A DNA stretch of 27,107 nucleotides. It comes from a virus. The notes under the pieces were generated by a model. That model had not been told where the DNA came from and did not search any database. It worked only from the letters and a program-made list of their open reading frames with translations. The DNA lies in the IMG/VR virus record IMGVR_UViG_3300027762_000032, positions 1 to 27,107 of that record; one strand, given 5' to 3'. Positions 84-14,482 of the stretch are shown here, piece after piece. Numbering within the stretch: position 1 is the first letter of the stretch; each line of letters opens with the position of its first letter. A program made the position numbers and the translations under genes.

Positions 84-923
84 CTATACTCTTATTATTA
101 TATCTTCTTGACTTCTTTCATAGTTAATCCACCACTTACTTACTCTATCAATCGTTTGTTGAACATCTTGTCTTCTATTGTCATTCTTTATTCTATTAAT
201 ACAAAAATTTACTGGCGTTTCCATTACTACAACTTTAGCTTTTAAAATATTTCTCCAATGATTTCTATGTTTAATCTTTGCTGCAGTGGTTATGAACCAA
301 ACTCTATTGTTGTTACATCTATATAAGTTTCTTAATATTTCATTGCGTTGTATTAATGCTAAATTAAGATACTGATTTGTATTATGGTAAATAGGTAAAT
401 TTGATAATTCTGAAATTATTAAGTCTACATCTATAACTAAATCATTATCTTTTTTATTTTGTTCTACATAATAACTTTTACCTGCACCTGATGGTCCACA
501 AACAACTATTACTGGACAATTTGGCTTTCTTATATCTGTAGGAAAGTATTGAACTTTATTAAAGGTTCCATCTTCTTTAGCTGTTTTTCTATCATGACAA
601 GATTTACAAAGTGATTGTAAGTTGTCATAGTCAACAAATATATTCCATAATCCTTTATGTGGGATTATATGGTCAACAATATTTGCTGTTACATATTCAT
701 CATATTTAAGACATTCTTGGCAAAGTGGTTCTTCTCCTAACTTTCTTTTCCTTATATTTGCCCATAATGATGTATTGTACCATTTATCATATTCAGGTCT
801 TATTCTTTTTTTACTTAAACTTTTTTTGTATTCTGTTCTATGAACAGCACATTTGGATTCACTACCATCAACTAAGGTATTACATCCAGGGTATGTGCAT
901 AATTTCTTTGGTCTATTTGGCAT
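84..923 (-). CDS. HNH endonuclease fused to a P-loop kinase-like domain (packaging-type HNH)
   Basis: The protein has about 279 residues. It has an N-terminal Cys/His cluster (C-x4-C, then KCAVH), an HNH nuclease at roughly 65-115 with zinc cysteines in CQEC and CKSC and the active-site run DHIIPH...N...H, and a C-terminal nucleotide-binding domain opening with Walker A GPSGAGKS at about 143-150. HNH proteins of this type (VDHIIPH / LCKSCHDRKTA) work with terminase at the cohesive ends of many Firmicutes and Proteobacteria phages, which suits its position at the edge of the missing packaging module. I place the start at ATG 923, preceded by AAAGGTG; a GTG three codons upstream is possible. 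The role of the fused P-loop domain is not evident: it resembles small kinase or AAA-like domains. The nuclease call is strong; the packaging role is inferred from family and position. Confidence 0.85.
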   Translation of the reverse strand: MPNRPKKLCTYPGCNTLVDGSESKCAVHRTEYKKSLSKKRIRPEYDKWYNTSLWANIRKRKLGEEPLCQECLKYDEYVTANIVDHIIPHKGLWNIFVDYDNLQSLCKSCHDRKTAKEDGTFNKVQYFPTDIRKPNCPVIVVCGPSGAGKSYYVEQNKKDNDLVIDVDLIISELSNLPIYHNTNQYLNLALIQRNEILRNLYRCNNNRVWFITTAAKIKHRNHWRNILKAKVVVMETPVNFCINRIKNDNRRQDVQQTIDRVSKWWINYERSQEDIIIRV

Positions 924-964
924 TTCATTCACCTTTATCTTTTTCCTAACGTCGGGAAAATGGT

Positions 965-1032: not shown

Positions 1033-1114
1033 ATATGTATGAGGATTTCGCTAAACATAATTATCACATCATATTAATTGTATTATAGTTAAAATTTATA
1101 GTCAATTGGTCAAA

Positions 1115-1133
1115 TGGACACGCTATTTGGACA
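1115..1133. repeat. 19-bp direct repeat, copy 1 (left boundary of the PAPS/ParB cassette)
   Basis: TGGACACGCTATTTGGACA is identical to 3800-3818. Within each copy TGGACA occurs twice, 13 bp apart, as in a paired operator site. This copy covers the last codons of the ribbon-helix-helix gene. Confidence 0.85.
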
Positions 1134-1284
1134 CATTGTAGCTTTTAGTAATCATATTTTCTTCATCTAAACTAATCAAAAGCCTTAAATATTCACTTGT
1201 ATTCAGTCCAAGTATACTTGCTTGTTTTTCTGCTTTATCTTTTAGTTCTTTTGATAATCTTATCATTATTGGTTTATTCACCAT
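1123..1284 (-). CDS. Small ribbon-helix-helix (Arc/CopG-like) DNA-binding protein
   Basis: 53 residues. The segment KPIMIRLSKELKDKAEKQAS followed by LGLNTSEYLRLLI fits an RHH fold: a basic beta strand (IMIRLS), then two helices separated by a turn. ATG 1284 is chosen because AAAGGAG lies 7-8 bases upstream; an upstream in-frame start would lie deep inside the ParB-like gene. Its first 11 bases overlap the end of that gene, so the two are translationally coupled. It is the last gene of the cassette. RHH proteins usually repress their own promoter, and a perfect inverted repeat sits in the cassette promoter at 3751-3772, which makes it the likely regulator (inference). Its 3' end lies in a 19-bp repeat. 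Confidence 0.75.
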   Translation of the reverse strand: MVNKPIMIRLSKELKDKAEKQASILGLNTSEYLRLLISLDEENMITKSYNVSK

Positions 1285-1801
1285 TTTGCAATCTCCTTTT
1301 TTCGTAATCTTCCCAACTTTTACTAAACTCAAAATTTGCAAACGCTTCCTTTAAACCTGTTATTTGTTTTAATCTTATTACTTCATCTAAATCCATACCA
1401 AGCTTTTTGCAAATAGATATATCTTCCCAACCTTGTTTCGTTAATTCAAGAACAATATCACTCATACTTCTTATTTTATGTGTTCCTCTTGCTCTATTAT
1501 GTCTTATTGTACTACCCATTCTTTCATCCAATGTTTTATCTATTACAACTATTGGTACTACATCACTTTTTAAATAATCTTTTAAAATTGTATATCTGTG
1601 GAAACCATCTACTACTATATAAACATCATTTTCTTTATCATAGTAACAAACTATTGGCATTGTTACACCATCTAATTCTATTGATAATTTTAACAATTTC
1701 ATTTCAGGTGTTGCAACTTTGTTTGGATTATAATCATTTGAAATAACCTTTTCAATTGGTACTAATTTAACTTCTAAACATGGAAATTTGATTTTTATCA
1801 T
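1274..1801 (-). CDS. ParB/Srx-fold N-terminal domain protein (IbrB-like)
   Basis: About 175 residues. The N-terminal half has the ParB/sulfiredoxin-type core: VPIEKVISNDYNPN, then a helix (MKLLKLSIELDG), then VVDGFHRYTIL, which stands where ParB proteins have GxxR/DGxHR. The C-terminal part (MSDIVLELTKQGW...ICKKLGMDLDEVIRL) looks like a small helix-turn-helix. There is no ParA in the window, so plasmid-style partition is unlikely. Instead it lies in an operon with a PAPS-reductase-like protein, the pairing seen in IbrA/IbrB of E. coli prophages. ATG 1801 has the better ribosome site (AAGGGTGAG); GTG 1810 is the alternative and overlaps the GNAT stop. Substrate unknown. Confidence 0.75.
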   Translation of the reverse strand: MIKIKFPCLEVKLVPIEKVISNDYNPNKVATPEMKLLKLSIELDGVTMPIVCYYDKENDVYIVVDGFHRYTILKDYLKSDVVPIVVIDKTLDERMGSTIRHNRARGTHKIRSMSDIVLELTKQGWEDISICKKLGMDLDEVIRLKQITGLKEAFANFEFSKSWEDYEKRRLQNGE

Positions 1802-1802
1802 A

Positions 1803-2207
1803 TTACTCACCCTTTCTCAAATAAAAGTATCTTCCATTTTGACGATATACTTCAAATCCTTTTTCAAACCAATACTTTTTTAAGTATTCTTCTTTTGTAA
1901 TTACCTCAATTGATTTATTTTTTTCTTCTGCATATCTTAACCTTTCTTCATTTATTTGTTTCCAAACACCTTTTTGTCTGTATTCATCTTCTACATAAGA
2001 TGATTCAAATACTATTTTATTTTTTAATTCATTTAATGAACCAAAACCAACTAACTTATTTGATTCATATACTAAAAACCATATATTTGTTTCTTTATTA
2101 CTCATATAAGGCATTATTTTTTTGTACTGTGGCTCTGCAAAATATTTACCCATAATAGAATAAAATTTTTTCTTATCGTAGTTACCACAAAACATTTTAA
2201 CTTCCAT
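1803..2207 (-). CDS. GNAT-family N-acetyltransferase
   Basis: 134 residues, the usual length of a single GNAT domain. LVGFGSLNELKNKIVFESSYV forms the central strands, followed by the acetyl-CoA pyrophosphate loop in VEDEYRQKGVWKQINEERL (an R/Q-x-x-G-x type motif) and the late strand/helix YLKKYWFEKGFEVYRQ. ATG 2207 is preceded by GGGGAG and overlaps the end of the PAPS-like gene by 11 bases, the same overlap length as between the ParB-like and RHH genes. The substrate cannot be read from the sequence. Its position between the IbrA-like and IbrB-like genes suggests that it acts with them, on a protein or small molecule. Confidence 0.8.
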   Translation of the reverse strand: MEVKMFCGNYDKKKFYSIMGKYFAEPQYKKIMPYMSNKETNIWFLVYESNKLVGFGSLNELKNKIVFESSYVEDEYRQKGVWKQINEERLRYAEEKNKSIEVITKEEYLKKYWFEKGFEVYRQNGRYFYLRKGE

Positions 2208-3483
2208 TTAATTCTCCCCTTTCCCATCTTTCTAAATCTTTATCATAATCACCATCACCAAGTATTTTTTTGTATTTTTCTTTTAGTAAATTTAACTTTT
2301 CGACATCTTTTTTTGTAGATGAAAAACTTAACCTTTTCATCCAAAAATCATTTTTTTCTAATGATCTTGCTATTCTTCTCCATGTTGGTTTTTTCCTGTC
2401 TGCTTCAACACCACTTTCATCAATATAGTCTTTATAATTTTCAACTTTTTGACCTCTTTTTTCTTCCCACCACTTCATAAATGTTTTTATCTTATTATAA
2501 TAATGTTCTTCTAATTCAGGAGCATATAGTCTAATACTTTCTAATAAATAAATCGTGTATTGTTCCCATGTCATATGTTCAGGCTTTTCTGATTTTATAT
2601 TTCCTAAAAGTGAAGTTCTTGCATATATGTTACCAAAGTTTACTCCTTGAACTCTATTTAAAACCTTTTCCCATGTTTCAGGTTCTAGTGATTTAAATTG
2701 GTCCAATCCGTTCCTTTGGTCATCACCATAAGGTTGGCATAATCTAGCTTCATGTATTGATAATCCATTTTTATACATCAATTCGTAAATTTCATTAAAG
2801 CTAAAATTTAATTTAAAAACAGCAGTCCATATATCTTCTGTCCTCCAATCATAAAGAGGAAAAAAATTATATACATCTATTGGTTTATTATTTATTTTAA
2901 CTTGTGTAGTCCAACCTTTTTCTTTATATCTGATTTTTGTGTCATTTATTATAGTTGTAAATCTGTTTAAACTTTCATCAGACCTTATACCTATTCCTGT
3001 TGCAATAGTTGAAGTGTGTTTTTTTGAATACCAATCAGCAAATTTAATTATAAATTCTTCAAATTCCATACCACATTTAAACCAATCAAAAGGACAATTT
3101 GATTCATTTATAACATCATCAGGCATATCTCTAACCCATTTTTCTTTATCTTTTTCATCCCAACATATCCACTTTGGTTGTAATATACTTACTGCATTTC
3201 TTAATGATATTGGCAAACAAATATGATAAAAATTATTTATACATTCTAACTTTTTTATTTCTTCTATATGTTCAATTGTGGCTTTGTATTGTGCTTCTAA
3301 ATCTATATATAAAATATCAAATATTTTGTTTTTAGATTTTGCTATATTATTTGCTAATTGAATCATAACAGAACTATCTTTGCCACCTGATACACTAAAA
3401 TAGATATGTTCAAATTCATCAAATATAAAATTTAGTCTTTCAATTGATGATTGTAATACATTTTTGTTGTTATAAATTTTCAT
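2197..3483 (-). CDS. PAPS reductase/sulfotransferase-like ATP pyrophosphatase (IbrA-like, DUF3440-type)
   Basis: 428 residues from ATG 3483. The PP-loop SGGKDSS lies at 32-38 and binds the ATP pyrophosphate in adenylating N-type ATP pyrophosphatases. It is followed by DLEAQY at the second strand and GIGIRSDESLNR in the middle, typical of PAPS-reductase relatives. The C-terminal region (ARLCQPYGDDQRNGLDQF, then GNIYA) matches the DUF3440-type tail of IbrA rather than assimilatory CysH. Relatives include DndC of DNA phosphorothioation, so sulfur or adenylate transfer to a macromolecule is possible but unproven. The start overlaps the preceding small gene by 14 bases; ATG 3489 is an alternative. 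The family call is firm, the reaction unknown. Confidence 0.85.
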   Translation of the reverse strand: MKIYNNKNVLQSSIERLNFIFDEFEHIYFSVSGGKDSSVMIQLANNIAKSKNKIFDILYIDLEAQYKATIEHIEEIKKLECINNFYHICLPISLRNAVSILQPKWICWDEKDKEKWVRDMPDDVINESNCPFDWFKCGMEFEEFIIKFADWYSKKHTSTIATGIGIRSDESLNRFTTIINDTKIRYKEKGWTTQVKINNKPIDVYNFFPLYDWRTEDIWTAVFKLNFSFNEIYELMYKNGLSIHEARLCQPYGDDQRNGLDQFKSLEPETWEKVLNRVQGVNFGNIYARTSLLGNIKSEKPEHMTWEQYTIYLLESIRLYAPELEEHYYNKIKTFMKWWEEKRGQKVENYKDYIDESGVEADRKKPTWRRIARSLEKNDFWMKRLSFSSTKKDVEKLNLLKEKYKKILGDGDYDKDLERWERGELNGS

Positions 3484-3709
3484 TGCCATCAATCCAATCT
3501 TTTATTTTATCATAGTCTTTATCTTTCGTTTTTTCTAACCATGATTTAAAACTATCTACTAGCCTTTCTTTTCTATCCAAACATTTTAACATTCTTGAAT
3601 CTAAACTGTCATATGCATATAAATCAATTATATGTACATTTTTATTTTGACCAATTATATTTACTCTACCTTCGTGACCACAACTATAAGTTCCGTAATA
3701 CCATGCCAT
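3470..3709 (-). CDS. Small conserved phage-type protein with N-terminal Cys/His segment
   Basis: 79 residues from ATG 3709, which has GGAGG eight bases upstream; a TTG five codons earlier overlaps that ribosome site and is unlikely. It begins MAWYYGTYSCGHEGRVNIIG, a pattern familiar from small phage proteins that end with CPEC-type cysteines. Here the later cysteine pair is missing and the tail is acidic and charged, so it may be a diverged version that cannot form a full zinc site. First gene of the cassette, directly behind its promoter. Function unknown. Confidence 0.65.
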   Translation of the reverse strand: MAWYYGTYSCGHEGRVNIIGQNKNVHIIDLYAYDSLDSRMLKCLDRKERLVDSFKSWLEKTKDKDYDKIKDWIDGNENL

Positions 3710-3742
3710 ATCAACTGCCTCCAAATCATTTATTAATTATCT

Positions 3743-3778
3743 TAATATAATTGTATATCATTTGATATACAATGTCAA
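3743..3778 (-). promoter_or_regulatory. Cassette promoter with perfect inverted-repeat operator
   Basis: On the minus strand TTGACA (3778-3773), a 17-base spacer and TACAAT (3755-3750) give a near-consensus housekeeping promoter, with transcription expected from about 3743, 34 bases before the first ATG. The spacer and -10 are covered by a perfect inverted repeat: TTGTATATCA (3751-3760), two bases, TGATATACAA (3763-3772). A dimeric repressor bound there would block the promoter. The RHH protein at the end of the operon is the obvious candidate. Confidence 0.8.
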
Positions 3779-3799
3779 TATAAAACTTTAACTTTGATT

Positions 3800-3818
3800 T
3801 GGACACGCTATTTGGACA
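3800..3818. repeat. 19-bp direct repeat, copy 2 (right boundary of the PAPS/ParB cassette)
   Basis: Identical to 1115-1133. It lies 22 bases upstream of the cassette -35 box. The two copies bracket the five-gene cassette and its promoter, about 2.7 kb. They could be recombination scars or two operators for the same regulator. Confidence 0.85.
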
Positions 3819-5518: not shown

Positions 5519-6079
5519 TTATAAAATTTCACTGCCTGCTATTTTTACTGACATTCGCCAAACTAATCTATTTCTATGTCTTCTCACTGTCCTTACATCA
5601 CAATTAAATTTATCTGCTATGTCAAAGTCATCCATATCTAGCCAGTATCTATATTCAATGACTTTATACCAGCTATCATCCTTCACTTTGGTTAGTGCCT
5701 TTTCTAATAAGTCTAAATACAGCTTGTCCTTTTCTATTTTTGATTGCAGATGTAAACATTTGCTATCAATCATTTGTTGTTCTGTAAGCCGATTTTGTGC
5801 CATACAAACGATGTCTGATGCAGTGGTTTTATTCTTTATTCCTATCTCAATATTTTTAAGTTTTTCTTCATTTTCGATTATGTTTTCTTCTAAAATTTCT
5901 TTTGCCCTTAGCAAGTCTTCTGTTTCCCTAAATATCTTTTTTTTATCTGTTTCACGCAAGCTTACAGCTGACACAAAAGCCCTTTTTACCGCAGTGTCTG
6001 CATAGTATGGTGCAGATTCAATAACGATAGCTTTTATATAACTTTTTTGATTCTCACTCAAAACCTCGGCTTTTTTCAT
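5519..6079 (-). CDS. ArpU/RinA-type phage transcriptional regulator with sigma-70 region 4-like HTH
   Basis: 186 residues from ATG 6079 (GGAGG five bases upstream, one base after the thermonuclease stop). Residues ~60-140 form long charged helices. The C-terminus holds VIEYRYWLDMDDFDIADKF...CDVRTVRRHRNRLVWRM, a helix-turn-helix like sigma region 4, as in ArpU/RinA late-gene activators. Such regulators switch on packaging, head and lysis genes in Firmicutes phages, which fits its place near the end of the early region. The call rests on architecture and the HTH; the target promoter is not visible in this window. Confidence 0.7.
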   Translation of the reverse strand: MKKAEVLSENQKSYIKAIVIESAPYYADTAVKRAFVSAVSLRETDKKKIFRETEDLLRAKEILEENIIENEEKLKNIEIGIKNKTTASDIVCMAQNRLTEQQMIDSKCLHLQSKIEKDKLYLDLLEKALTKVKDDSWYKVIEYRYWLDMDDFDIADKFNCDVRTVRRHRNRLVWRMSVKIAGSEIL

Positions 6080-6080
6080 G

Positions 6081-6485
6081 TTAACCTCCAATTTGAATAA
6101 TTTTATCAAAGTCTTTTTCATACCACTTTGGCTTGCAGTTTTTATATTCCTTTGCATACCCTTCTTCTAGTAGTTTTTCATTGATATTGTAGCTGTCTGA
6201 ATATAAGACACCCAAATACCTGTTATACATATCTTTTTTAATCTTCATACTACATAAAAATATTTCTTTGTTTGCTAATTCCTTAAAAAGTTTTACCCTT
6301 GCAATCTCTGCTGCCTGTTGTTCTTTTTCTGTTTCACCTTTAAGTTCAGGTGTATCAATATCAGCCAGCCTAATAGTCCTTGTAATTTTTACATCAAACC
6401 CTAAATCGATTGTTACAATAGCTGTATCACCATCAATTACCCTTACCAATTCAGACTTGTACACATACAAATACTTATCAACCAT
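6081..6485 (-). CDS. Thermonuclease-family (SNase-like) nuclease, cytoplasmic
   Basis: 134 residues of OB-fold nuclease. Landmarks are VIDGDT (17-21), IRLADIDTPEL (38-48, with the catalytic arginine and glutamate positions R39 and E47), and MYNRYLGVLY with the second arginine R89; LLEEGYAK closes the domain. There is no signal peptide, so it acts inside the cell. ATG 6485 has AGGGGTG seven bases upstream. It follows repeat array A and is one base from the ArpU-like gene. Possible roles are degradation of host DNA for nucleotides or replication-associated trimming; the sequence does not tell which. Confidence 0.9.
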   Translation of the reverse strand: MVDKYLYVYKSELVRVIDGDTAIVTIDLGFDVKITRTIRLADIDTPELKGETEKEQQAAEIARVKLFKELANKEIFLCSMKIKKDMYNRYLGVLYSDSYNINEKLLEEGYAKEYKNCKPKWYEKDFDKIIQIGG

Positions 6486-6532: not shown

Positions 6533-6891
6533 AATCGTTTAATTTGGTTCATTCTCCATATTTTTTAAGTCAAAATCTTTGGTTCAATCCACCTACTTAT
6601 AAATCAAATACTGTGGTTCATTCTTTGATATTGAAAATCCCTAAATTTGGTTCATTCTATATCCTTTTTATCTTTTCCCGTGGTTCATTCATGTTTATAA
6701 TATTTATTACACTTTGTTCATTCATATGTATCTTAGTCACTTAATACGGTTCACTCATAGTCCTTTTGATTCTCATAATATGTTTCATTCTTGTAATATT
6801 AGTGTCCTTATTCTTAATTCATTTATCTCCTATTAATTCAATATCTTTAATTCATTCTCTATTAATAATCTTCGTTTGGTATGATTCATTC
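6533..6891. repeat. Repeat array A: 11 copies of the GGTTCATTC box at ~33.7-bp period
   Basis: Boxes begin at 6546, 6581, 6615, 6649, 6682, 6715, 6748, 6782, 6816, 6849 and 6883. Four are exact; the rest differ by one to three bases. Ten of the eleven have TC exactly nine bases before the box. The last box overlaps the stop of the sigma-like gene, and the array fills the whole 404-base gap to the thermonuclease gene. No coding frame survives because the steps alternate between 33, 34 and 35. Copies nearest the sigma-like gene are the most degenerate. Confidence 0.95.
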
Positions 6892-7573
6892 ACTTTTTAA
6901 AATAGTCACCTATAATACTCCACTCATTGAAATCTTCATTTTTTCTGTCTTCCTGGACATAATCACTTAACAGTCCAGTAAGTTTTTTTAAGGCACATTG
7001 CTTTATAAAGCTGACATTGCTAATTTTCATTTTGTTCTTATCTGCAATTTCTTTTATTGATAAATTCTCAATACAGCTTTCAACAATTACTGTTAATTCA
7101 ATCGGTGTAAGTTCATTTATTGCATTTTCAAAGTCCATTTTTGACACATATTTATTAATATCTATTTTTTTATCTTCAAGAAAAATTGCAAATGTGTCAG
7201 TTTCTTCATTTATAGTTTTGTCGTATGAAAATACACCCTTTCTTTTTTTGTAATCTTTTTGCATGTAGTACATTAATTTATATTTAATGTTGATGTATAA
7301 ATAAGTTGTAAATGTTTCATAGGTTTCTTTATTCAATTTATTTAGTGTTTTTATAACTATTTCAATTCCACAACTTATTAAATCATCAAGCTGATCTGGG
7401 TAATGGTATATGTGTTTTCTAGCTATATATATAATCAGGTACACGCTCCTGGCCACAAATTCATCTTTAGCCTGTTGGTCACCTGCTAGGATTTTGTCAT
7501 AATAGGGTATAAGTTCATCTTTTTGCAATGAAGTAAGTCCATTTTCTTTTAATGTTCTAATTAATTCTGTCAT
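6890..7573 (-). CDS. Sigma-70-family-like factor
   Basis: 227 residues. Region 2-like helix: YPDQLDDLISCGIEIVIKTL at ~58-77, preceded by ARSVYLIIYIARKHI. Region 4-like HTH: INELTPIELTVIVESCIENL, then SIKEIADKNKMKISNVSFIK at ~155-193. This is the architecture of short sigma factors and of phage sigma-like regulators. ATG 7573 has GAGG seven bases upstream. The gene sits between repeat arrays A and B; the array boxes touch its stop codon and come close to its ribosome site. It may redirect host RNA polymerase to phage promoters; whether it recognises the boxes is untested. Confidence 0.75.
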   Translation of the reverse strand: MTELIRTLKENGLTSLQKDELIPYYDKILAGDQQAKDEFVARSVYLIIYIARKHIYHYPDQLDDLISCGIEIVIKTLNKLNKETYETFTTYLYINIKYKLMYYMQKDYKKRKGVFSYDKTINEETDTFAIFLEDKKIDINKYVSKMDFENAINELTPIELTVIVESCIENLSIKEIADKNKMKISNVSFIKQCALKKLTGLLSDYVQEDRKNEDFNEWSIIGDYFKK

Positions 7574-7600: not shown

Positions 7601-8497
7601 AATCTGTAAACTTGGCTCATTCCAACATAATTAAATTCTTTTTGTTTGTTTCATTTAATTGTTATGGCCGTCACAATATTTGGTTCAATCTTTCTTTTTT
7701 TTAAATCACATAGGATGGTTCATTCTTTTGTTTTTTATTCATCTTAATTGGTTCTATCCCTACTATTACGTAAATCATTAATTATGAATCATTCGCAGTA
7801 TTTATTAATCTTCCTCATTAATTCAATCTAATATAATTTAGTCATAGGCCTAGATTCATTCGTATGCCCTTTTGTTTCATCATCCTTGGTTCAATCGATA
7901 TATAATTACTCCCACATCATGGCTCATTCATCGGCTATTTAATCTGAATAGTTGATTCATTCTGTAATTATTAAATCTTTTGCAGTGGTTCATTCCTTCC
8001 CGCTTCAAATCATATTCCTTGGTTCAATCTTAAATATTAACAATCTTGCACCTGTGGTTCATTCGCTCAATTTGTTTTCAATTTCTTTGGTTCAATCCTT
8101 TTATATTTTTTCAATTACATTGGTTCATTCCTATACTATTTTCTTCAGTGGCTTCGGCTCATTCAATCTTCTTTAAATCCCATGATCTGGTTCATTCAAT
8201 TCCTATTTTTTCAATTACATTGGTTCATTCAAGTGTCGTGTTTATCTTTTGCCCTGGTTCATTCAGACATATTTACATCTCGCATCATGATTCATTCATG
8301 CTTTTTGCTTTTCAATTTTCATGGTTCATTCCATTATTTTTTAATCTTTGACTATGGTTCATTCTAATTACGTTTGAATCCAACCTTCTGATTCAATCCT
8401 TTTATTTTTATTCACTTTAAGTGGTTCATTCCAGATTCATAATTTCATGGTTTATGGTTCATTCACATTTCCTTATCTCATGTGATTTGATTCATTT
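7601..8497. repeat. Repeat array B: 27 copies of the GGTTCATTC box at ~33.7-bp period
   Basis: Boxes begin at 7614, 7648, 7682, 7717, 7750, 7786, 7820, 7853, 7888, 7921, 7954, 7987, 8021, 8056, 8089, 8122, 8156, 8189, 8222, 8256, 8289, 8323, 8356, 8390, 8423, 8456 and 8489. Eleven are exact GGTTCATTC and four are GGTTCAATC. Twenty-six have TC exactly nine bases before the box; 8056 has ten. Steps are 33-36. The last box overlaps the stop codon of the Transposase_20-domain gene, so the array fills the whole ~900-base gap. Bases 8104-8130 and 8204-8230 are identical, evidence of internal duplication by three units. Confidence 0.97.
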
Positions 8498-12989: not shown

Positions 12990-13083
12990 GTGTTAGGGGC
13001 AATTGCCCCTAACTATCCATGCCTTGCAATGCCGAGCCGCGCCTTGCCGTGCCTTGCCTCGCCTCGCCTAGCCTCGAAAATTT
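12990..13083. repeat. Intergenic GCCNN-pentamer module, copy 1
   Basis: Eleven pentamers in strict register (13021-13075), nearly all GCCNN (for example GCCTT, GCCGC, GCCTC), end in GAAAATTTAT at the preceding gene's stop. A 9-bp hairpin GTTAGGGGC/GCCCCTAAC (12992-13000 with 13005-13013) adjoins them. Order on the mRNA: stop, AAATTTTC, (NNGGC)n, hairpin, ribosome site, next ATG. Far richer in GC than its surroundings. Confidence 0.9.
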
Positions 13084-13583: not shown

Positions 13584-13680
13584 TTGTTAGGGGCTAATCG
13601 CCCCTAACTGTCCTCACCATGCCTCGCCCCGCCGCGCCGCACCGCGCCAAACCTCGCCAAACCGCGCCCCGAAAATTTAT
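13584..13680. repeat. Intergenic GCCNN-pentamer module, copy 2
   Basis: About twelve pentamers (13611-13670: TCCTC, ACCAT, GCCTC, GCCCC, GCCGC and so on) again run into GAAAATTTAT. Hairpin GTTAGGGGC/GCCCCTAAC (13586-13594 with 13600-13608) has the same stem as copy 1 but a different loop. Same position relative to stop and ribosome site. Confidence 0.9.
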
Positions 13681-13685
13681 TTAAA

Positions 13686-14397: not shown

Positions 14398-14482
14398 GAA
14401 GGGGAATTAACCCCTACCCTACTCCTTGCCATGCCGCGCCTTGCCGCGCCAAACCTCACCGGGCCCCGCCGCGCCTTGAAAA
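14398..14482. repeat. Intergenic GCCNN-pentamer module, copy 3
   Basis: Pentamers GCCAT, GCCGC, GCCTT, GCCGC, GCCAA, ACCTC, ACCGG, GCCCC, GCCGC, GCCTT occupy 14428-14477, then GAAAATTTAT. The adjoining hairpin is shorter (AGGGG/CCCCT, 14400-14404 with 14411-14415). It lies between the small zinc-ribbon gene and the 227-residue gene. Confidence 0.88.

Follow-up and report, generated by a model that had tools for sequence, protein, structure and literature searches.

An IbrA-GNAT-IbrB phage operon is a variant of the widespread IbrAB pair, with a chimeric first reading frame

We analyzed a 27,107-base virus record (IMG/VR record IMGVR_UViG_3300027762_000032; hereafter, the window), and in particular a minus-strand gene cassette at 1115-3818 which encodes an IbrA-like PP-loop protein, an acetyltransferase of the GNAT family and an IbrB-like ParB-fold protein. 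The genes of this cassette are real, yet they do not constitute a five-part system; the operon is an IbrA-GNAT-IbrB variant of the known, widespread and functionally unsolved IbrAB pair. Concerning its working, we tentatively favor, with a probability of roughly 40%, a DNA-directed, adenylating pair of IbrA and IbrB which would not use sulfur, accompanied by an optional GNAT protein and a local regulator of the ribbon-helix-helix (RHH) type. The window shows the gene content of a temperate tailed phage (tape measure, endolysin, integrase, DnaB-like and DnaD-like replication proteins), and the cassette is flanked by replication-side genes on one side and by an HNH/kinase-like gene on the other. 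Domains were assigned by profile searches in Pfam, PHROGs and NCBIfam. The five open reading frames (ORFs) of a preliminary description are present, in the order of transcription:

3470-3709, minus strand: chimeric ORF, 79 amino acids (aa), fusing the start of a CGHEGR protein with the end of an SNF2-family helicase
2197-3483, minus strand: IbrA-like PP-loop (SGGKDS) protein, DUF3440, 428 aa
1803-2207, minus strand: GNAT-family acetyltransferase, 134 aa, motif RQKGVW (Pfam Acetyltransf_10, 4e-7; position conserved in relatives)
1274-1801, minus strand: IbrB-like ParB-fold protein, 175 aa, motifs DGFHR and IRHNRARG, C-terminal helix-turn-helix (HTH) (phrog_2159, 5e-65; alignment; fold)
1810, minus strand: possible alternative GTG start of IbrB
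1123-1284, minus strand: RHH-like small protein, 53 aa (NikA-like match of 5e-5, under the cut-off; absent in relatives)

Consecutive genes overlap by 14, 11, 8 and 11 bases. The 11- to 14-base overlaps reported before are thus inexact at the GNAT-IbrB junction, which has an 8-base overlap when IbrB starts with GTG 1810 and a 1-base gap when it starts with ATG 1801. The IbrA-like, acetyltransferase and IbrB-like identities proposed earlier were confirmed by Pfam and PHROGs matches, among them DUF3440 (4e-29) and PAPS_reduct (6e-13) for IbrA and ParB_N (1e-4) for IbrB.

Conservation of the gene neighborhood was assessed in 111 loci taken from GenBank phages, IMG/VR and GTDB genomes. In 109 of these, IbrB neighbors IbrA, either immediately or separated by a single small gene; the two other loci are truncated by the end of their contig. 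Of the 107 complete pairs, 12 show the opposite gene order. The family distances of IbrA correlate with those of IbrB (r = 0.81), a value reached in none of 2000 permutations. IbrA and IbrB are an obligate pair and form the conserved core. In the window, the DUF3440 gene and the IbrB-like ParB gene have a GNAT gene between them, as in about 20 relatives. Hence, the neighborhood recurs elsewhere, with IbrA and IbrB kept together and the acetyltransferase alongside, even fused. An SNF2-type helicase is found nearby in 39 of the 111 loci, and unbiased clustering of all neighbors yielded no further conserved partner apart from ordinary phage DNA-metabolism genes.

The view that IbrA and IbrB are limited, as far as known, to a regulatory role in E. 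coli prophages proved too narrow. The pair was found in 207 and 222 phage records, IbrA relatives are encoded on at least 538 IMG/VR stretches, and the phage ibrAB query matches 1,913 of 5,426 complete E. coli genomes; in all three matching genomes that were opened, the pair sits in genomic islands. As in the E. coli IbrAB island (YbdN/YbdM in K-12), a DUF3440 PP-loop protein adjoins an IbrB-like ParB-fold protein. In contrast to that island, the phage cassette has a GNAT gene between the pair, an RHH gene after it and a helicase remnant before it, its carrier is an AT-rich temperate phage, and its nearest IbrA relatives occur in Firmicutes-type phages and genomes.

IbrA resembles CysH, CysD and flavin adenine dinucleotide (FAD) synthase in its PP-loop core, in further sequence segments and in fold. 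Invariant in the family are SGGKDS (residues S32-S37), GxR..ES..R and YP[IL]YDW..(E)DIW, the latter two being segments shared with these enzymes; the SGGKDS-type ATP/adenylyl site of CysH is therefore present. Searches with the predicted IbrA model returned human FAD synthase (Z 12.5), ATP sulfurylase (Z 12.0) and adenosine phosphosulfate (APS) reductase (Z 11.9), which are tied, placing the fold likeness at Z about 11-12.5. Unlike these enzymes, IbrA lacks the ECGxH cysteine, possesses a long C-terminal DUF3440 region and has IbrB as its constant partner. The catalytic ECGxH motif of CysH occurs in 0 of 110 IbrA sequences, as does CxxC, and no cysteine is invariant. Two cysteines are frequent, C107 (81% of sequences) and C249 (90%), and C249 is missing in members from Streptococcus, Lactobacillus, Fusobacterium, Mycobacterium and Flavobacterium phages, all of which are still paired with IbrB. 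The lack of both motifs, together with paired members in which C107 or C249 is missing, argues against reduction of phosphoadenosine phosphosulfate (PAPS) and against obligatory cysteine-based sulfur transfer; judged by its sequences, sulfur chemistry appears not to be supported for IbrA-IbrB.

In IbrB, residues D65, G66, H68, R69 and R100, N102, A104, G106 are invariant. Its DGFHR (65-69) aligns with DGVHR of SbnI at the same place, where Noc reads AGERR; the GERR of ParB box II is not present in IbrB. The modeled N-domain is closest to KorB (Z 15.8), Noc (Z 15.2) and ParB (Z 15.1), with 1.5-1.8 Å across 92-95 residues for Noc and ParB, followed by SbnI/SerK and sulfiredoxin (Z 8-10), and residues 110-172 are HTH-like in the predicted model. 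Thus, IbrB shares the order of a ParB-fold N-domain and an HTH with the CTPases ParB, Noc and KorB, but has DGFHR and HNRARG where those have GERR and ENxxR (HNRARG was compared with the known ParB box III). With the serine kinases SbnI/SerK and with sulfiredoxin it shares the N-domain fold and, in the case of SbnI, the DG[V/F]HR motif; in contrast to SbnI/SerK, it carries an added HTH and is always paired with IbrA. No ParA gene was found among the conserved neighbors of IbrAB loci. The top matches of the IbrB profile, 8cwy and further designed helical repeat proteins, were rejected as repeat artefacts, and a search of solved structures by sequence gave no close relative of either IbrA or IbrB. 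ParB-fold proteins bind CTP, ATP or GTP according to a 2025 survey, in which one DndB-like ParB-fold protein binds ATP and GTP and a ParB-acetyltransferase fusion binds GTP (PMC12704722); the main text of this PNAS article mentions neither IbrB nor PAPS. Another domain joined to IbrB was observed in gene 104 of Mycobacterium phage Nebkiss (L033:6302-7198), whose IbrB has an extra N-terminal domain, and the counterpart in the related phage Gaia is annotated as an ectoine synthase/ParB multidomain protein.

The first ORF, listed earlier as a small Cys/His protein of the cassette, is not a component of its own. Its N-terminal 24-36 residues match the start of a CGHEGR protein of ~378 aa, and residues ~13-75 match the part of an SNF2-family helicase from motif VI to the end. 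Two independent hidden Markov models (HMMs) match the 79 aa, one at positions 1-36 of 383 of the first gene (2e-13) and one at positions 361-424 of 430 of the helicase (1e-13). In the closest relatives, IbrA is preceded by both genes intact, the first encoding the ~378-aa protein, which begins with MAWYYGTYSCGHEGR, and the second an SNF2-family helicase of ~470 aa (phrog_62). With the 79-aa ORF as query, all 15 relatives found in IMG/VR are genes of full length. At the codon level, the two genes meet at a shared stretch, GAA-GRT-AGA-GTA...ATT-GGN-C, and the corresponding two points are separated by 2,257-2,305 bases in seven relatives. Further, a tree of 110 IbrA proteins places the window among members retaining the helicase, which all nearest IbrA relatives have. 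Because of the match to two HMMs, the full-length relatives, the shared junction and the helicase-bearing nearest relatives, the simplest account of the 79-aa ORF would be the scar of a ~2.3 kb deletion in the phage. A role as a zinc-finger component was consequently rejected, since the ORF fuses the ends of two genes. This chimera is a warning that small “novel” phage proteins may be deletion scars. The CGHEGR protein itself (phrog_16123, without a Pfam match) is found near IbrA in 17 of the 111 loci, where it stands before the SNF2 helicase (e.g., L008:2333-3466 and relatives); it may be a partner of this helicase.

Of the 111 loci, 21 have the GNAT gene. Its usual place is between IbrA and IbrB; two loci (L006 and L012) have it as a C-terminal fusion to IbrA. 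The coenzyme A (CoA) motif RxxGx(G/A) reads RQKGVW in the window; all nine aligned sequences keep R and G of RxxG, and the last position is mostly taken by a bulky residue. Eight relatives have, at the same operon position, a protein that lost the RxxGx motif and for which hhalign nevertheless gives homology with the GNAT set at 98.7% probability. On the IbrA tree, the presence of GNAT or GNAT-like proteins needs 14 changes. By these sequence comparisons, GNAT is an accessory, patchy third part, whose catalytic role would not be universal. As for the RHH protein, its weak likeness to NikA/RelB holds, whereas its place as a conserved component does not: the gene is absent from all 111 IbrA neighborhoods, no relative was found in IMG/VR, and on these grounds it was rejected as such. 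It is a candidate for a locally added regulator.

For the proposed pair, we infer adenylation, a DNA target and co-regulation along the following lines. The ancestral operon would have had the order CGHEGR protein, SNF2 helicase, IbrA, (GNAT), IbrB. Loss of ~2.3 kb between a short sequence common to the first two genes would have created the 79-aa fusion, which still overlaps IbrA and may be translationally coupled to it. IbrB would bind DNA via its HTH and hold a nucleotide in the ParB/sulfiredoxin-fold pocket, at the SerK/SbnI-type motif DGFHR. IbrA, with its ATP-sulfurylase/FAD-synthase/APS-reductase fold and without the reductase cysteine, would use ATP to adenylate a target presented by IbrB, most simply DNA or a DNA-bound partner, and the outcome would be altered expression or protection of phage or host DNA. 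In some lineages, GNAT might tune the reaction or serve as an adaptor.

Several points weigh against this proposal. The predicted models are of moderate quality (predicted local distance difference test, pLDDT, 79-80; predicted template-modeling score, pTM, 0.65 and 0.59). Most sequences contain C107 and C249, which may have a branch-specific role. The chimeric ORF is known from one assembled virus record and may stem from mis-assembly. Finally, a small-molecule target is possible, as the closest structural families of IbrA act on small molecules, namely sulfate, flavin mononucleotide (FMN) and APS. The more specific idea that IbrA-IbrB, with GNAT in some lineages, carries out a new, sulfur-free and adenylation-dependent modification of nucleic acid from phage or host is one we consider rather doubtful. 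If true, it would represent a separate kind of DNA- or RNA-modifying system, occurring in hundreds of phages as well as in roughly one E. coli genome in three and mislabeled as PAPS reductase. The missing cysteine and the ParB-fold partner point to a testable two-enzyme chemistry, for which the patchy, partly degenerate GNAT, the GNAT-IbrA fusions and the helicase association offer concrete handles.

Alternatively, the pair could be a pure gene regulator, in which IbrB binds DNA under the control of a nucleotide switch, in the manner of VirB, KorB or Noc, while IbrA senses or turns over the nucleotide and modifies nothing. Genetically, eib genes are known to be activated by IbrAB (Sandt 2002, cited in PMC7649339), VirB is a CTP-dependent regulator of the ParB type (PMC10770331), and the whole-chain match of IbrB is to KorB/Noc. 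However, DGFHR in place of box II GERR does not fit such a switch, and the full set of PP-loop active-site residues is kept throughout the IbrA family, beyond the need of a passive sensor, so that we find this explanation doubtful. Somewhat less probable, and in our view unlikely, is a small-molecule pathway: IbrB would phosphorylate a hydroxyl group, IbrA adenylate the phosphate and GNAT acetylate, giving a signal, a cofactor or a counter-defense metabolite. The kinase-type DGxHR motif, the IbrA fold nearest to FMN adenylyltransferase and CysD, and the GNAT-IbrA fusion in two loci agree with it, but neither the C-terminal HTH of IbrB nor the neighboring DNA replication and recombination genes, with the frequent SNF2 helicase, would be expected.

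The preliminary description had modeled the cassette on DndC and DndB, i.e., as a phosphorothioate-like or other sulfur modification of DNA. Both systems indeed combine a PP-loop protein with a ParB-superfamily protein, IbrB has the DGxHR-type motif cited there for DndB, and PADLOC gave a weak IbrA match to the PAPS-reductase-like BrxP of BREX type 4 (8e-6). C107 and C249 are also common, although not universal, and may or may not correspond to the two conserved sulfur-transfer cysteines of DndC. The missing invariant cysteine and CxxC nevertheless set IbrA apart, and no desulfurase or other Dnd/Ssp partner (DndA, DndD, DndE; SspA, SspB, SspC) is among the conserved neighbors. PADLOC found no Dnd/Ssp match in 15 other proteins of the window and, for defense context, weak matches only. 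The analogy as drawn is accordingly not supported, and sulfur modification is quite improbable. Even less credit is due to IbrA as an auxiliary metabolic gene for sulfur assimilation, although it is among the common phage genes annotated in this way: the Pfam PAPS_reduct match, the PHROGs label and published annotations as PAPS reductase (PMC10434257, PMC11318856) face the missing ECGxH motif in 110 of 110 sequences and the constant ParB-fold partner with an HTH, for which reason the label is probably wrong. That GNAT and RHH form a toxin-antitoxin pair like TacAT/AtaRT within the operon is very unlikely: their genes do belong to one operon, the promoter of which has a palindromic site, but IbrB separates them, the RHH protein of 53 aa has no match to DUF1778, about 20 relatives have the GNAT gene but no RHH gene, and two have it as an IbrA fusion.

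The following elements surround the cassette:

3800-3818, minus strand: copy A of a 19-bp direct repeat, TGTCCAAATAGCGTGTCCA, exact, 21 bases upstream of the cassette -35-like hexamer
1115-1133, minus strand: copy B of the repeat TGTCCAAATAGCGTGTCCA, 9 bases upstream of the HNH promoter-like site, overlapping the stop codon of the RHH gene
3750-3778, minus strand: cassette promoter-like site TTGACA-N17-TACAAT, 11/12 consensus matches
1077-1105, minus strand: HNH-gene promoter-like site TTGACT-N17-TACAAT, 10/12 consensus matches
3751-3772, no strand: perfect palindrome with 10-bp arms, TTGTATATCA-NN-TGATATACAA, overlapping the cassette promoter-like site, candidate operator
84-932, minus strand: next transcription unit, HNH endonuclease and P-loop kinase-like protein (phrog_4581, terminase small subunit, 8e-56)

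The cassette had been said to run from its own promoter. A fitting site lies upstream, but such sites are not more numerous than in shuffles of this AT-rich region; thus, a promoter at 3750-3778 is plausible only. The palindrome has its sole copy in the window here and none in shuffles, and might be the operator of the RHH protein. The two repeat copies have the same orientation and bracket the cassette (0 of 100 shuffles with two copies); their outer coordinates, 1115 and 3818, coincide with the limits of the feature described earlier, where the repeat was not mentioned. No exact copy exists in IMG/VR, none of the other loci retrieved has its half-site pattern, and relatives show no comparable flanking repeats save four unrelated cases. 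A known mobile-element end was therefore rejected. The repeat is plausibly a shared activator site for the cassette and the HNH/terminase-side genes, which would then be co-induced via this element; alternatively, it may be an insertion footprint. To the former, a phage-encoded sigma factor of the sigma-70 family (6890-7573; TIGR02937, 3e-15) and a second region-4-like regulator (5519-6157; phrog_36) can be added.

In the HNH gene, the endonuclease is fused to a P-loop kinase-like domain, and the match is to the terminase small subunit family; used as a query for other phages of this genome, it found none. Twenty exact copies of TGGTTCAWTC, all on the plus strand and mostly 33-35 bases apart, lie at 6545-6690 and 7681-8464 (chance expectation 0.15). 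These blocks flank the sigma-factor-like gene on both sides and are iteron- or centromere-like; other IMG/VR contigs contain single pairs only. Adjoining the array, 8496-9362 matches the phrog_4285 “transposase” (2e-43). The early region also encodes a Staphylococcal-nuclease-like protein (6081-6485; SNase, 6e-13). A 10-base unit (e.g., CCTCGCCNNG, CCGCGCCTTG) is repeated within three GC-rich blocks, at 13022-13081, 13612-13681 and 14414-14473, of the otherwise very AT-rich genome.

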